Below are positions 1 to 63,652 of a stretch of 64,000 nucleotides of DNA, piece after piece. Source of the DNA: Ensifer sesbaniae (GTDB lineage: Bacteria > Pseudomonadota > Alphaproteobacteria > Rhizobiales > Rhizobiaceae). The position numbers and the translations under genes are program-made. Below the pieces are notes generated by a model. That model did no database searches, was not told the origin of the DNA, and saw only the letters and a program-made list of their open reading frames with translations. Location of the stretch: contig NZ_JABEKU010000001.1 in NCBI RefSeq assembly GCF_013283665.1, positions 310,001 through 374,000 of the forward strand, written 5' to 3'. Position 1 is the stretch's first letter, and each line of letters begins with the position of its first letter.

Positions 1-264
1 GATGCCGAGCACGATGCACCAGTAGAAGAGCGTGCGGACAAGGCCGATGAAGCCGCCGCCGGAGGAGCGCCGTGCGCTGCCGCGCTTGCCGGCTGCCTTC
101 TTCTTGCCGTTGCTCTTTTTGCTGCTGCCCGAAGATTTGCCGCGGGGCGCCTTGCGGCTGCTGGTCACGCGATCGCTGGCCTCGACGCGAAAATCGTCAT
201 CGTCGTCCTCGTCTCCGCCGAACGATGGCTCGATCCGCTGTCCTGACCTGCCGTTTGTTGCCAT
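1..264 (-). CDS. Probable class A penicillin-binding protein, N-terminus only
   Basis: Only the first 88 codons are inside the window and the gene runs off the left edge. The protein opens with an acidic run (residues about 15-22), then a Ser/Lys/Gly-rich basic stretch (about 35-70) and the beginning of a hydrophobic segment (about 75-88). A charged, low-complexity cytoplasmic tail leading into one membrane anchor is how rhizobial PBP1A-type transglycosylase/transpeptidases begin. No catalytic motif is visible, so the family call is recognition of the N-terminal style, not proof. The ATG at 264 has a GAGGGAC ribosome site upstream. It could be another membrane-anchored protein with a basic tail. 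Confidence 0.5.
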   Translation of the reverse strand, partial: MATNGRSGQRIEPSFGGDEDDDDDFRVEASDRVTSSRKAPRGKSSGSSKKSNGKKKAAGKRGSARRSSGGGFIGLVRTLFYWCIVLGI

Positions 265-875: not shown

Positions 876-1100
876 CTGAAATCCTGCAATTAATGAGAGT
901 AAAATATACATTTAGCTTATTGGTGGTCGTATATCTGAAAAGCTGAGGGAAAGTAAAAAGCCATCAAAGGTTGTAGTTTCCATCCGGTTACCGCGCCAAG
1001 CTTGGCTTTCGAGCATCGGTCTTTAGCGAGGGAATCCGCGACTCGGGCGCGGGTGAAGAGCTCAAGAGCGCGCCAAGCGCGCTCGCTTTCACGATTTTGT

Positions 1101-1150
1101 GCAATGCAAAAATAATGACTTGATTTTGCTGCAATGCATAATTATTATAT
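1101..1150 (+). promoter_or_regulatory. Promoter region of the small RNA, with a repeated GCAATGCA motif
   Basis: CTTGAT at 1119-1124 and TATTAT at 1143-1148, 18 bases apart, make a plausible -35/-10 pair that would start transcription near 1155. The octamer GCAATGCA occurs twice as a direct repeat, at 1101-1108 and 1131-1138, exactly 30 bp apart. The second copy lies between the two promoter elements. The spacing of nearly three helical turns suggests a bound regulator, which is inference. Confidence 0.5.
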
Positions 1151-1154
1151 GACT

Positions 1155-1270
1155 TATCGAAGCGCTGCACCTCCTCCCGCGGCGCCCGATGCGGATCGGT
1201 GACACTCCTCCTCCCAGTCGCCGATCAAGTTCGAGAGCCCCGTGTACCTCCTCCCACACGGGGCTCTTTT
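1155..1270 (+). ncRNA. Alpha-r14 (NfeR1-like) trans-acting small RNA with three anti-Shine-Dalgarno loops
   Basis: Three hairpins follow one another, and each exposes CCTCCTCCC in its loop (1170-1178, 1207-1215, 1247-1255). The first stem pairs 1162-1168 with 1179-1185 (one U-G). The second pairs 1194-1203 with 1217-1226 (one U-G). The third pairs 1234-1245 with 1256-1267 perfectly over 12 bp and runs into TTTT at 1267-1270, a Rho-independent terminator. Unpaired CCUCCUCCC motifs in successive loops are the hallmark of the alphaproteobacterial alpha-r14 family, whose Sinorhizobium member NfeR1 affects osmoadaptation and nodulation by pairing with ribosome sites of transporter mRNAs. The 5' end is estimated from the promoter. 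Confidence 0.85.
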
Positions 1271-1448
1271 CATGTCTCGAATGCAGTCGTGTTTCCCTGC
1301 ATGTCGCACCTGTGGTGCGCCGTTGGCGCCGCGGCGGGTTCTCGCGGGACGGCGTGGAGACGATTTGAGGAAACCGGCAGGCGGTGAATCCTGCTATGGC
1401 TTCGCCTTATTGTTGTGCTTGGCTATCGCACGACAAAGGAGGGTTGCC

Positions 1449-1937
1449 ATGAAGCTTCGATCCACCGTCCTCGCGCTCGTCGCATTCGCAGCGTTGAACG
1501 GCGAGACCCTGGCGCAAGAAGGCGTCGCCTATGTCGACGATCGCTCCGATGGGGCAACCCTCGTCCGCTCTCTCTATAACGCCATCAACCGCAAGGAATA
1601 TGCCCGCGCCTACGGCTATTTCGGCGAATCGAAGCCCGTCGGCGGCTTCAAGTCCTTCACCCGCGGCTATGATCGCACGGTGTCCGTCGAGGTAAAGATC
1701 GGCAAGGTGAAGACGGAAGCCGGTGCCGGCAGCATCTATTCCGCGGTCCCGGTTGCGGTGAAATCCATCGAGAAGCGCGCGCGGGTCCGGTTCTTCGCCG
1801 GCTGCTACGTGACGCGCATCATCAACCCCTCGCTGCAGGTGCCGCCCTTCACGCCCTACCAGATCGAGGCGGCGCGGCTTGAGGAAGTGAAGGGGCCGCT
1901 CGAGCAGGCGCTTCCGGCCGTCTGCAATGCGCCCTGA
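1449..1937 (+). CDS. Secreted hypothetical protein
   Basis: This encodes 162 residues with a signal peptide ending near AxA at about residues 20-22, so the mature protein is probably periplasmic. I do not recognise a named domain. The sequence around residues 40-60 (an aromatic-rich helix with YARAYGYF) resembles the start of NTF2-like or stress-associated periplasmic proteins, but this is weak. Two cysteines (about 118 and 159) could form a disulfide. The ATG at 1449 is chosen because AGGAGG lies 7 bases upstream and because the signal peptide begins there. It is a single-gene unit ending just before a convergent gene. Confidence 0.75.
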   Translation: MKLRSTVLALVAFAALNGETLAQEGVAYVDDRSDGATLVRSLYNAINRKEYARAYGYFGESKPVGGFKSFTRGYDRTVSVEVKIGKVKTEAGAGSIYSAVPVAVKSIEKRARVRFFAGCYVTRIINPSLQVPPFTPYQIEAARLEEVKGPLEQALPAVCNAP

Positions 1938-5125: not shown

Positions 5126-5569
5126 TCAGGCGCGGCCGTCGCCGCGCGCCACGTTGGCAAGCGCCATGCGCATATATTCGAGCATCAACTCGCGCTCGAA
5201 GTTTCTGAGGCCGGAGAGCAGCGACTGGTCGGCGGCAAGGGCTGCTTCCTTGGCTGCCGCCTCCATCTCCTTCGCCCGCTCGGTCAGGAAGATCTGCTGC
5301 GAGCGCTTGTCCTGCGGATGCTTGCGGCGGATGATGAGCCCGTCGCGCTCCATGCGGGAGAGCGTGTTGGCCATCGTCGCCTGTTCGATGTCGAGGCGAT
5401 CAAGCAGTTGCTTCTGCGTCAGGCCCTCTTCGGCCCAAAGCTCCAGCAGAATGGGAAACTGTCCCGGCGCGAACCCGAGCTTCTGGCCGCGCTCGTGCAG
5501 GGCGCGCGAAAAGCTCTTCGCCAGCAGGCTGGCCAGATAGGTCGCAGATTCCATCCGATTGAAGGCCAT
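5126..5569 (-). CDS. MarR-family transcriptional regulator
   Basis: This encodes 147 residues, the standard MarR length. The winged helix-turn-helix is clear: LTQKQLLDRLDIEQATMANT (about residues 50-69) as helix pair and recognition helix, then RMERDGLIIRRKHPQDKRSQQIFLT as the wing (about 72-96). Helices at both ends would dimerise. Such proteins are usually ligand-released repressors. The ATG at 5569 is chosen, although its ribosome site (ATAGG) is weak. An imperfect palindrome at 5651-5673, some 80-105 bp upstream, could be an autoregulatory operator. Its target may include the adjacent dipeptidase, which carries a matching palindrome. Confidence 0.85.
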   Translation of the reverse strand: MAFNRMESATYLASLLAKSFSRALHERGQKLGFAPGQFPILLELWAEEGLTQKQLLDRLDIEQATMANTLSRMERDGLIIRRKHPQDKRSQQIFLTERAKEMEAAAKEAALAADQSLLSGLRNFERELMLEYMRMALANVARGDGRA

Positions 5570-5703: not shown

Positions 5704-5744
5704 CAAAAAACCGTCACGGCGCGGAGGCGGCGCCGTGACGGTTT
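5704..5744 (-). terminator. Rho-independent terminator for the leftward transcript
   Basis: AAACCGTCACGGCG (5708-5721) pairs with CGCCGTGACGGTTT (5731-5744), a 14-bp stem. Read leftward it is followed by a T-rich run. It would end transcription from the frameshifted membrane-protein gene. Confidence 0.65.
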
Positions 5745-5949
5745 CCTGAAAACGGGACAAAGGCCCGGAGAGGGGGATAAGGCCTTTGTCCTCATCTGGT
5801 GCGGGCGGGGGACAGGCCAATCACCAGAAGACGGCATCACTCGGTGCCGTTGGGTAAGATTTGAGGAGTCAAATGTGGCTTTTCAAGGATAGGCGGCACG
5901 AATCGGACATTACAAATACGTAACGTTTCCGTGAAAGCTCGCACGCCCC

Positions 5950-6335
5950 TCAGCGATCTGTCGAAGCCCGGTTTCGCAAGGCGAAAATGAGTTCCACAAG
6001 GCCGATCCCCATCGCAACCGTCATCGCCGTTTTTGCCATTTCGCCCGCCGTTTGATCCGGCGTAATGGACATGACGACAATGAAGGCACCGAAGAGCGCG
6101 GCGCGCGCCACGGCATACTCCACCTTCTGCCAAGTTGGCCAGGATGAACCGTCCCCTCGCCTGAAATGGGTATCGAGCCCGTCATCGCGAGCAGGTACAT
6201 CGGCGCGAAAGCCGTCTTGATGACGATCAGGAACGTCGGATCGGCCGACAGGAGCCACGAAATGAGGAAGCAAAAGCCGGCAAAGCTTGAAAGAAGAAGA
6301 TACTGTTGCAGGGCGTAACGCACGTCATGCGGCAT
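5950..6335 (-). pseudogene. Small membrane protein gene split by a frameshift
   Basis: Two overlapping frames together give one coherent membrane protein. The first frame starts at 6335 (MPHDVRYALQQ) behind a strong GAGGAGG site and contains two hydrophobic segments. It becomes Arg/Trp-rich nonsense after the GSIPISGEG region. The second frame continues with WPTWQKVEYAVARA and two more hydrophobic segments ending at 5950. The switch is near 6145-6165, where a single G appears missing in a GGGGACGG context. The intact product would be about 127 residues with about four helices. I do not recognise the family. A sequencing error is as likely as a real mutation. Confidence 0.6.
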
Positions 6336-6426
6336 GGCTGGCCTCCTCTTTGACAAGTGGAGATTGTAGTGTTCGGTGGGAAAACCGCAATGGACCTTTG
6401 CCTCACCCCGCGCTATCCATTTGCCC

Positions 6427-61942: not shown

Positions 61943-63652
61943 GTGACGGGCGTGTCGGAAGAAGGAAAACGAAGGACGGCGAATGGCCTGTCGGCGATCG
62001 TCGATCTCCTTCGTCATCGCCTGACCCGGCCTTTCAGCTTTTACCTGACGTCGCTGCTCCTGGTAGCCATCGTTCCGGCCTTCATTTTTTCGCTCGTGGT
62101 GCTGAAGCGCAGCGTCGATCAGCAGGAGCAGGTGATCACGGCGCTGCTGCAGGCCTCGACCGGGTCGGTCACCCGTATCGTCGAGCGTGACATCGAAGGC
62201 ATGCTGACCACGCTGAAGGTGCTGTCGACATCACAAGAAATCGAAGACGGCAACATGGAGGCCTTCTACGGCAGGGCCTCGACCGCGCTTGCCGAGACGG
62301 ATTCCTACCTGATCGTCATAGATCGCAAGCACAACCAGTTGCTCAACACGCGCGTGCCTTTCGGCGCACAGCTCAACAAGGCCTCGGATCCGGACTCCGT
62401 CGAGCGCGCCTTCACCAACAGTGGTGCGCCACTCGTCTCCAACGTCTTCTTCGGCCAGACCGCGGGAAAATGGGTGTTCAACGTTTACCTGCCGGCGAAG
62501 TTGTCGACCGGCGAGGAATATGTGCTGACGTTGACGCAAAACGCCGAGAACATGGCCAAGGCCGTTAACCGCGATACGCTCTCCCCCGGCTGGAATGCGG
62601 CGCTGGTCGATAGCGCGGGCAAGGTCATCATCTCGTCGGACGCAGCCGTGAAGGCCGGCGAACCGTTCTTCCTCGACACGGTGCCGGCGATCAGCATTGG
62701 CGTCAGCAATATCAAGGAAAACGGCACGGAATATCGCGTCGCGACCGAGTTCTCCGTCGTCACCGGATGGCGGATCATTGCCTGGGCACCGAGCGCAACC
62801 GTCGATGCGCCGGCCGTCTGGTCGTTTCTCTGGCTGTCGCTCGGCGGCATCATTTTCGCCGGCATCGCGATCGCCGGCTCGCTGGCGATCGCGCGGCTGT
62901 TGTCGCAGGGCGTCAAGCTGGTGGCGCAGGATGCGCGCCGTCTCGGCGCCGGCGAGCGGATCGAATCCCGGCCGCACATGATATCCGAGGTCGAGCAGGT
63001 CTCGACGGCGCTGGCACGCGCCGCCGCGGCGCGCAGCAAGGCGGAAAACGAGATCCGCTTCCTCATGCGCGAAGTGGCCCACCGCTCGAAGAACCAGTTG
63101 ACCGTCATCCAGTCCATGCTGAACCAATCGGTCTATTCGGCCGAGAGTGCCGCCGACTTCGCCGAATCCTTCCGCAAGCGTATTGCCGGGCTTGCGCGCT
63201 CGACGGACCTGATGATTGCAAATGCGGCGCAAGGCGTCGATTTCCGCGAGCTCGCCCAGAACCAATTGCAGCCGTTCACGCCCGACGATCCGAAACGCCT
63301 GATCCTTTCCGGCCCCGCCCTGAGGCTCGACACGCAGATCTCCCAGACGCTCGGCATGGCCCTGCACGAACTTGCGACGAATGCCACCAAATACGGTGCG
63401 CTTGCCAACACCACCGGGGTCGTCAAGCTGAGCTGGTCGCTGGAGGACGACGGCATTGCCATTCGCTGGCGGGAGGAGGGCGCGGATCTCGCGGGCAAGC
63501 CTTTGGATCCGGTCCGCAAGGGCTTCGGGACCTTGGTATTGGAGCGCATGCTCGGCATGGCGCTGAACGCCGCCCTGGAGCGGATAATGCATGCCGACGG
63601 CATTGAGTGGCGGATCACCATTCCCCGCGACGAGAAGGAAGAAGAGGCATGA
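61943..63652 (+). CDS. Membrane sensor histidine kinase (HWE/HisKA_2 type)
   Basis: This encodes 569 residues. TM1 is at about 31-54. A periplasmic Cache-like sensor (about 60-285) follows, then TM2 (about 292-315) and a HAMP-like linker. The H box FLMREVAHRSKNQLTVIQSM is near 373-392. The N box ALHELATNATKYGALA lies near 475, and the late GFGTLVLERML completes an HWE/HisKA_2 ATPase. Such kinases in rhizobia often feed the PhyR general-stress pathway or single-domain receivers. The partner is not visible here. The start is GTG 61943, but GTG 61952 has the better-spaced GAGGTG and may be correct. Confidence 0.88.
   Translation: MTGVSEEGKRRTANGLSAIVDLLRHRLTRPFSFYLTSLLLVAIVPAFIFSLVVLKRSVDQQEQVITALLQASTGSVTRIVERDIEGMLTTLKVLSTSQEIEDGNMEAFYGRASTALAETDSYLIVIDRKHNQLLNTRVPFGAQLNKASDPDSVERAFTNSGAPLVSNVFFGQTAGKWVFNVYLPAKLSTGEEYVLTLTQNAENMAKAVNRDTLSPGWNAALVDSAGKVIISSDAAVKAGEPFFLDTVPAISIGVSNIKENGTEYRVATEFSVVTGWRIIAWAPSATVDAPAVWSFLWLSLGGIIFAGIAIAGSLAIARLLSQGVKLVAQDARRLGAGERIESRPHMISEVEQVSTALARAAAARSKAENEIRFLMREVAHRSKNQLTVIQSMLNQSVYSAESAADFAESFRKRIAGLARSTDLMIANAAQGVDFRELAQNQLQPFTPDDPKRLILSGPALRLDTQISQTLGMALHELATNATKYGALANTTGVVKLSWSLEDDGIAIRWREEGADLAGKPLDPVRKGFGTLVLERMLGMALNAALERIMHADGIEWRITIPRDEKEEEA

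Follow-up and report, generated by a model that had tools for sequence, protein, structure and literature searches.

The locus near the start of this DNA, from a root-nodule-type bacterium, raises the question of what governs a small RNA gene whose promoter carries an exactly repeated motif. The window, meaning the whole 64,000-nucleotide stretch analysed here, encodes an αr14 ("cuckoo") small RNA at 1152-1271 on the forward strand, in agreement with the family named by the first-pass annotation of the sequence: the RF02344 covariance model is matched over its full length (1-123) at 105.7 bits, against a gathering score of 58.8. The RNA and its core promoter comprise the following features.

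1155..1271, + strand: αr14/cuckoo-type small RNA (RF02344; Rfam match 1152-1271; 5' end at about 1155, estimated from the -10 element)
1155..1191, + strand: hairpin 1, inner stem 1162-1185, loop CCUCCUCCC at 1170-1178
1194..1226, + strand: hairpin 2, loop CCUCCUCCC at 1207-1215
1233..1271, + strand: hairpin 3 (1233-1268 in the fold), loop CCUCCUCCC at 1247-1255, U-rich 3' side
1120..1125, + strand: -35 element TTGATT
1143..1148, + strand: -10 element TATTAT, after a 17-bp spacer

The segment 1155-1272 folds at -55.9 kcal/mol (z -7.2), as well as which none of 200 shuffles folds, and leaves the loop motif unpaired in all three hairpins. At the DNA level CCTCCTCCC occurs at 1170-1178, 1207-1215 and 1247-1255 on the forward strand, and its sole further copy in the 64 kb lies at 63471-63479 on the reverse strand; these four matches compare with 0.63 expected, and 0 of 100 shuffles reach four. 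Motif search and fold together bear out the three hairpins with identical loops described earlier, and the stems show the covariation for which a check had been proposed: when the window RNA is aligned with 28 sequences from the same chromosomal slot (n=29), RNAalifold predicts 27 pairs, 14 of which show one or more double changes that preserve pairing, and none of the three loop motifs varies. Transcription as a discrete, Hfq-independent RNA is a further hallmark of the αr14 family. Hairpin 3, whose U-rich 3' side ends in CTCTTTTC, is presumed to be the intrinsic terminator; a simple terminator scan did not call it because its 10-nt loop is longer than the 3-8 nt permitted by that scan.

The core promoter, TTGATT-N17-TATTAT, agrees with the general sigma-70 consensus at 9 of 12 positions and differs from the literal αr14 consensus CTTAGAC-N17-CTATAT, the sigma-70 promoter reported for NfeR1 homologues (PMC10746234; papers are cited here by accession, each from part of its text). 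Separate from these elements, as the first-pass annotation held, is the repeat GCAATGCA at 1101-1108 and 1131-1138, whose two copies are spaced exactly 30 bp apart. Spacing and copy number stand as described, but the repeat is more than an octamer: one base further 5', both copies read TGCAATGCA (1100-1108 and 1130-1138), and they form two operator-like palindromes of the form TGC-RNY-GCA, one on each side of the -35 element and the second inside the -35/-10 spacer. Since TGCAATGCA with at most one mismatch is not enriched across the 64-kb window (13 found, 13.9 expected), the exact-octamer view was dropped and the literal repeat replaced by a degenerate palindrome; what stands out is that a single promoter holds two exact TGCAATGCA copies, each set in AT-rich arms. 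Other candidates weighed for the repeat were boxes of the FixK-like, Fur-like and quorum-sensing types.

Conservation of the octamer pair in orthologues fails for the literal sequence, which occurs twice in the window genome only (1 of 16 genus genomes), and holds for the degenerate palindrome pair, found in all 16. The genus-wide form is TGC-RRY-GCA with both arms fixed, spaced at 29-31 bp in 15 genomes and at 32 bp in the sixteenth (L045). Pairs of TGCRRYGCA 29-31 bp apart in the 16 genomes are confined to αr14 and two other loci, one upstream of a pcs-like gene (six genomes) and one elsewhere (three genomes), and a reversed control pattern gives one match. An anchored form of the pattern, too strict to serve as a count, has seven matches among 297 genomes of the family: five fall in the genus, all at this αr14 locus, and the others are L083, where an Rfam scan found no αr14, and L084.

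Fit of the palindromes to the PhaR/AniA operator

PhaR (AniA) of Sinorhizobium meliloti binds WNWD2NYGCRNYGCRNH2WNW (PMC12542648), a consensus that both window 21-mers match, in a comparison by eye, at 21 of 21 positions. The two predicted operators are as follows.

1094..1114, no strand assigned: predicted PhaR/AniA operator 1, core TGCAATGCA at 1100-1108, immediately 5' of the -35 element, 28.9 bits
1124..1144, no strand assigned: predicted PhaR/AniA operator 2, core TGCAATGCA at 1130-1138, in the -35/-10 spacer, 27.2 bits

The scores come from a position weight matrix built from 24 of the EMSA-positive S. meliloti sites of the same study, with four exoH sites and two mirror-image entries excluded (PMC12542648). 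Left out one at a time, the known sites score 12.2-27.9 bits, compared with 28.9 and 27.2 for the window sites; the third-best site in the 64-kb window reaches 12.0 bits, and, at a threshold of 16 bits, 20 Markov shuffles yield 0.15 sites per 64 kb. The arrangement also has a precedent in phaP1 and phaP2 of S. meliloti, where two PhaR palindromes flank the -35 element and either is sufficient for binding in vitro (PMC12542648). As a positive control, 30 phasin loci of the genus were scored, of which 16 carry two sites of at least 16 bits, 12 carry one and two (L142, L143) carry none; both window-genome loci in this count, L134 and L150, have two such sites each, the count excluding that genome's third phasin-type match, on C4. 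All 16 genus genomes have a phaR gene; that of the window genome (G000:C1:3508804) encodes a 192-aa protein with PF07879 and PF05233 and lies divergent from a gene presumed to be thiolase-like. The published motif also occurs at seven genes that PhaR activates rather than represses, and guaB, one site of this type, showed no binding (PMC12542648).

The palindrome pair upstream of the pcs-like gene was considered as a co-regulated site and set aside. This pair (L074 near 1501-1539; G000:C1:1903924), found in 6 of 16 genomes with its halves 30 bp apart, precedes a gene that matches CDP-OH_P_transf (Pfam) and is taken to be phosphatidylcholine-synthase-like; no site of 8 bits or more is detected in L074 by the PhaR matrix, and the pair was therefore treated as a chance occurrence.

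On the preferred reading, PhaR probably represses the window small RNA until polyhydroxybutyrate (PHB) titrates the repressor away. PhaR is known to repress phasins and to be titrated by PHB (PMC12542648).

The chromosomal slot and the owner of the published site

Two genes flank the small RNA and anchor the comparison of its chromosomal slot.

1449..1937, + strand: conserved hypothetical gene, 162 aa, no Pfam match; downstream synteny anchor, found by tblastn in 15 of 15 genus loci
1..264, - strand: 5' end of the upstream divergent gene, presumably encoding a penicillin-binding protein, as judged from the complete gene in L187; synteny anchor, found by tblastn in 14 of 15 genus loci

In all 15 other genus genomes an αr14 copy adjoins the 162-aa gene. 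With the 162-aa protein, rather than the RNA, as bait, an orthologue search returned 79 loci, and αr14 occupies the slot in 28 of these: 10 in the window clade (most labelled Ensifer; this set overlaps the 16 genus genomes, several genomes being common to both), 17 in the Sinorhizobium clade and one in Pararhizobium antarcticum. Rfam confirmed αr14 in the six submitted, the rest being recognised by the three loop motifs and alignment. All 28 have a PhaR site of at least 14 bits within 200 nt upstream of the first loop; the background, counted over the 79 loci with the sequence 5' of αr14 set aside, is 12 sites at 14 bits or more, five of them at 19 or more, in 648 kb. In an alignment of 29 promoters, conservation 5' of the core promoter is concentrated mainly in a TGC..tGCA core; the -35 and -10 elements and operator 2 vary between clades. 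Operator 2 is confined to the window clade, where it reaches at least 14 bits in 5 of the 10 loci, and is absent from Sinorhizobium-clade orthologues.

Other elements were seen around the slot. PhaR-type sites of 14.6-26.9 bits lie 5' of the 162-aa gene in Mesorhizobium-like and related records that have no αr14 at this place (L218, L229, L230, L234 and L242-L244). An αr7 small RNA, a relative of S. meliloti SmelC023 (at 201679), is encoded at 5705-5852 on the reverse strand (RF02342, 136.4 bits), 4.4 kb from the αr14 copy and near a MarR-family gene at 5126-5569; this neighbourhood of αr14 and αr7 is kept in the loci tested from S. meliloti, S. medicae, S. fredii, two Ensifer sp. and Pararhizobium antarcticum.

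In S. meliloti (L187, strain 4H41) the orthologue carries the PhaR site CAATGCTGCAATGCAACATTC about 50 nt before the predicted αr14 start, αr14 being placed by Rfam at 2782-2900 of L187. The same site is listed in Table 3 of PMC12542648, as entry 207016-207036, credited to SMc02855/SMc02856 at distances of 184 and 176 nt from the start sites of these genes, and the table also names a penicillin-binding protein gene at this locus. The site could accordingly serve the flanking protein genes, either that of the penicillin-binding protein or, in S. meliloti, the gene 3' of the small RNA, with the RNA a mere neighbour. The published entry under SMc02856 and SMc02855 speaks for this reading, as do 7 of 51 αr14-less loci in which a PhaR-type site lies no more than 1.8 kb 5' of the 162-aa gene. 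Nevertheless, it is considered improbable: the published site, at 176-184 nt from the gene starts, is marked as not evaluated by EMSA (PMC12542648), and PhaR sites accompany αr14 copies in other gene neighbourhoods as well. Moreover, in the window, L172, L173 and L180 the distance from the first loop to the 162-aa gene is only 274-302 bp; the gene intervening in S. meliloti is therefore missing there, yet site and small RNA remain. If PhaR controls the small RNA, as preferred here, a published PhaR site would be reassigned from two protein genes to the RNA.

Other αr14 copies and their inputs

A survey of the family covered 100 loci (L001-L053, L078-L124), in which 67 copies remained after requiring three CCTCCTCC and at least 200 nt of upstream sequence and dropping duplicates. 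A PhaR site of at least 14 bits lies within 260 nt of 39 of these copies (0.7 expected from shuffles), a VtlR/LsrB-type box, GCAT-N3-TG-N3-T, is present at 20 (2.0 expected), and six have both. Within the genus (35 copies) the corresponding numbers are 27 with a PhaR site, nine with the box, one with both and none with neither; outside it (32 copies) they are 12, 11, five and 14.

The PhaR sites track the presence of phaR. Among phaR-bearing genomes outside the genus, 24 of 44 αr14 copies score at least 14 bits, in 16 of 19 genomes (450-nt reach, one copy per locus, tandem partners and loci L087, L093, L102, L107 and L108 excluded; nine of the 44, three of them with a site, fall below the αr14 family cut-off, weak matches being counted only where listed). 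The remaining 20 copies have no PhaR site within 450 nt and three of the 19 genomes have none; two of these 20, L098 and L112, are linked to a phasin gene and have two PhaR sites further upstream. As a negative control, two genera without phaR were taken (nine genomes, 0 of 9 with PF07879), of which seven genomes carry αr14, with 29 matches in total, three below the cut-off and two of those three without CCTCC in the first loop. None of the 29 copies has a PhaR site (best 13.3 bits), and 10 of them keep an LsrB-type box. The contrast of 24/44 with 0/29 gives a Fisher p of 2.7e-7 with relatedness ignored and, since the phaR-less αr14 genomes come from two genera only, does not represent 73 independent cases.

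Several copies occur in settings of their own. In two genera αr14 lies shortly 3' of a phasin gene (Phasin_2), and two PhaR sites spaced 19-20 bp apart stand upstream; the phasin-linked copy at L112 scored 63.1 bits in one scan and was unlisted in a later, filtered one. At L250 and L251 αr14 stands directly 3' of the phasin gene and the PhaR site pair 5' of it, and RNA and granule protein are presumed to share one transcript. Four loci with αr14 behind a small DUF1127-type ORF comprise three with PhaR sites and one, from a phaR-less genome, without; copies 3' of such an ORF have PhaR sites at L253, L254, L255 and L029 and none at L252 (phaR-less G031). The DUF1127 type was read from the results for the L254 ORF, and the small ORFs at the remaining such loci are presumed to be of the same type. 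Upstream of NfeR1, a SmelC398-type copy carries a PhaR-type site, ATATTGCACTGCACAAATC, of 18.8-20.9 bits in 13 of the 13 distinct genus copies listed (L001, L006, L007, L009 and L012-L020), so that PhaR probably controls a further αr14 copy in each genome.

The window genome contains four αr14 copies: the window copy (C1:311152), a tandem pair on the reverse strand (C1:1856841-1857251) and one on C2. Of the tandem pair, the downstream copy has TGCA-N6-GCAT (TGCACAGATCGCAT) and TGC-N11-GCA, the boxes published for LsrB and NtrC at S. meliloti NfeR1 (PMC10746234), and is therefore taken as the NfeR1 orthologue. The likeness to NfeR1 noted in the first-pass annotation is thus one of family; the window copy is a paralogue rather than an orthologue, sitting at another locus without LsrB-type and NtrC boxes.

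LsrB activates NfeR1 and NtrC represses it (PMC10746234), and the window palindromes might themselves be LsrB/VtlR sites that place this copy under redox or symbiosis signals. That LsrB is a known activator of NfeR1, that the VtlR-type box GCAT-N3-TG-N3-T accompanies 20 of 67 αr14 copies, and that 7 of the 28 orthologues of the window copy have such a box overlapping their palindrome are all in keeping with this reading. It is judged quite improbable, however, because neither GCAT-N3-TG-N3-T nor TGCA-N6-GCAT is present on either strand of the window promoter, and because conservation across clades falls on the TGC-N3-GCA core rather than on GCAT-N3-TG. Furthermore, the NfeR1-type copies with an LsrB-type box (L001, L009, L011, L014) have no PhaR site, and phaR-less genomes lack PhaR-type sites yet keep that box at 10 of 29 copies. 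The NtrC box TGC-N11-GCA is likewise absent within 200 nt of the window copy and present in three of four NfeR1-type copies examined. In the seven orthologues with the overlap, LsrB may share or own the site. The overlapping arrangement (GCATNNCTGCNNTGCA) was seen at L050, L086, L088, L099, L104 and L105, and at L184, L186, L192-L194, L196 and L212; at such promoters activator and repressor could compete for a single site. A further box, GCATGGCTGGCCT at 6332-6344 on the forward strand, has the same 13 bases as the LsrB-type box before αr14 copy L025, the pattern occurring at chance frequency in the window.

Whether the window copy is functional at all may be asked, since, according to a review, northern blots under the conditions tested gave reliable detection of just one of the six S. 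meliloti copies (PMC7143759). A silent duplicate whose promoter and hairpins are functionless leftovers is nevertheless very improbable given the compensatory stem changes and invariant loops over 29 sequences, and the retention of the operator core while the remaining promoter diverged. Least probable of all is the salt or general stress regulator that the first-pass annotation suggested for the repeat: another copy, NfeR1, does rise on salt shock (PMC10746234), but the NfeR1 promoter elements are absent from the window promoter, and the repeat matches at every position the characterised operator of a different regulator, the PHB-binding repressor PhaR/AniA.

A proposed carbon-storage circuit and its relation to known systems

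PhaR control of the window copy would operate as follows. When the cell holds little PHB, PhaR would occupy the palindromes on both sides of the -35 element and block RNA polymerase; under carbon excess, PHB granules would form and titrate PhaR, and the small RNA would be made together with the phasins. Its three CCUCCUCCC loops would then base-pair with Shine-Dalgarno regions rich in purines and so keep a set of mRNAs from being translated, as the loops of NfeR1 are reported to silence mRNAs (PMC10746234). We infer PhaR binding, repression and the targets of the window copy by joining, from sequence, the PhaR half of this scheme to the silencing half taken from NfeR1. The mRNA targets may be largely common to the other αr14 copies. 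With loops shared and promoters differing, it would chiefly be the timing of synthesis that distinguishes the paralogues, the PhaR copies being made with carbon storage and the NfeR1-like copies under LsrB and NtrC.

If correct, the window small RNA would report on carbon storage rather than salt stress, and the existence of several copies with identical loops per genome would be explained as the same output coupled to different inputs. A vague "stress regulator" would give way to one that has a name and can be tested, and carbon storage would be linked to a large family of anti-Shine-Dalgarno RNAs, most of which are uncharacterised.

Feedback onto phaR itself is a lead only. By a crude duplex score, pairing of the phaR leader with the αr14 loops ranges from -14.1 to -20.9 kcal/mol across all 16 genus genomes (L155-L170), beyond the 5th percentile (-13.7) of greedy window ORFs (n=42), although 8.8% of composition shuffles pair as well as the leader of the window genome. 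These values hint at mutual repression of phaR and the αr14 RNA through the phaR Shine-Dalgarno region. Phasin leaders are poorer candidates, with 28 of 30 reaching only -7.1 to -9.4 kcal/mol and two loci unmatched by motif, and the phaZ leader of the window genome (-7.5 kcal/mol) is no unusually good pairing partner. PhaZ protein does not follow phaZ promoter activity (PMC12542648), and the αr14 RNA is a candidate for post-transcriptional effects of this kind in the PhaR study. A broader model, which is possible but rather doubtful, would make the αr14/cuckoo RNAs a family-wide output arm of PHB sensing, with standalone, phasin-linked and DUF1127-linked copies under PhaR and the RNA silencing phaR via its purine-rich leader, a double-negative loop like that of NtrC and NfeR1.

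In the openly available main texts searched, no report of a PhaR input to αr14 was found, though one may exist elsewhere. The words sRNA, SmelC and NfeR1 are absent from the main text of PMC12542648, in which MmgR is one small RNA named, and neither sRNA nor SMc02855 appears in the main text of PMC5596199. The PhaR site of the SmelC398-type copy was likewise not found in the literature searched.

Among known systems, NfeR1 (SmelC397) of S. meliloti resembles the window RNA most directly, as an αr14 RNA of about 120 nt with three hairpins and the same loop motif, but it differs in locus and promoter, the window copy having two PhaR-type operators in place of LsrB and NtrC boxes. The SmelC398-type copy is likewise an αr14 RNA with one predicted PhaR site upstream, read from the sequence of L001 as lying over the -35 element; it differs in having a single operator, another locus and a longer transcript (217 nt in the S. 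meliloti account). The Cuckoo RNAs and RFM SmelA075 share repeated hairpins with CCUCCUCCC loops (PMC3927594) and represent other copies, loci and inputs, SmelA075 being strongly detected after a shift to 40 °C (PMC2873474). On the side of the regulator, mmgR of S. meliloti is a small RNA gene repressed by PhaR/AniA, with binding demonstrated by EMSA (PMC12542648); it encodes, however, a different RNA (SmelC689) that affects phasin levels and has a single site 13 nt from its start. The phaP1 and phaP2 promoters share with the window promoter the two PhaR palindromes flanking the -35 element, at spacings of 18 and 28 bp by the Table 3 coordinates of PMC12542648 against 30 bp in the window, but they drive granule proteins, whereas the window promoter drives a small RNA. 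The RNA itself thus belongs to a known kind, and the proposed PhaR input would be the new element.
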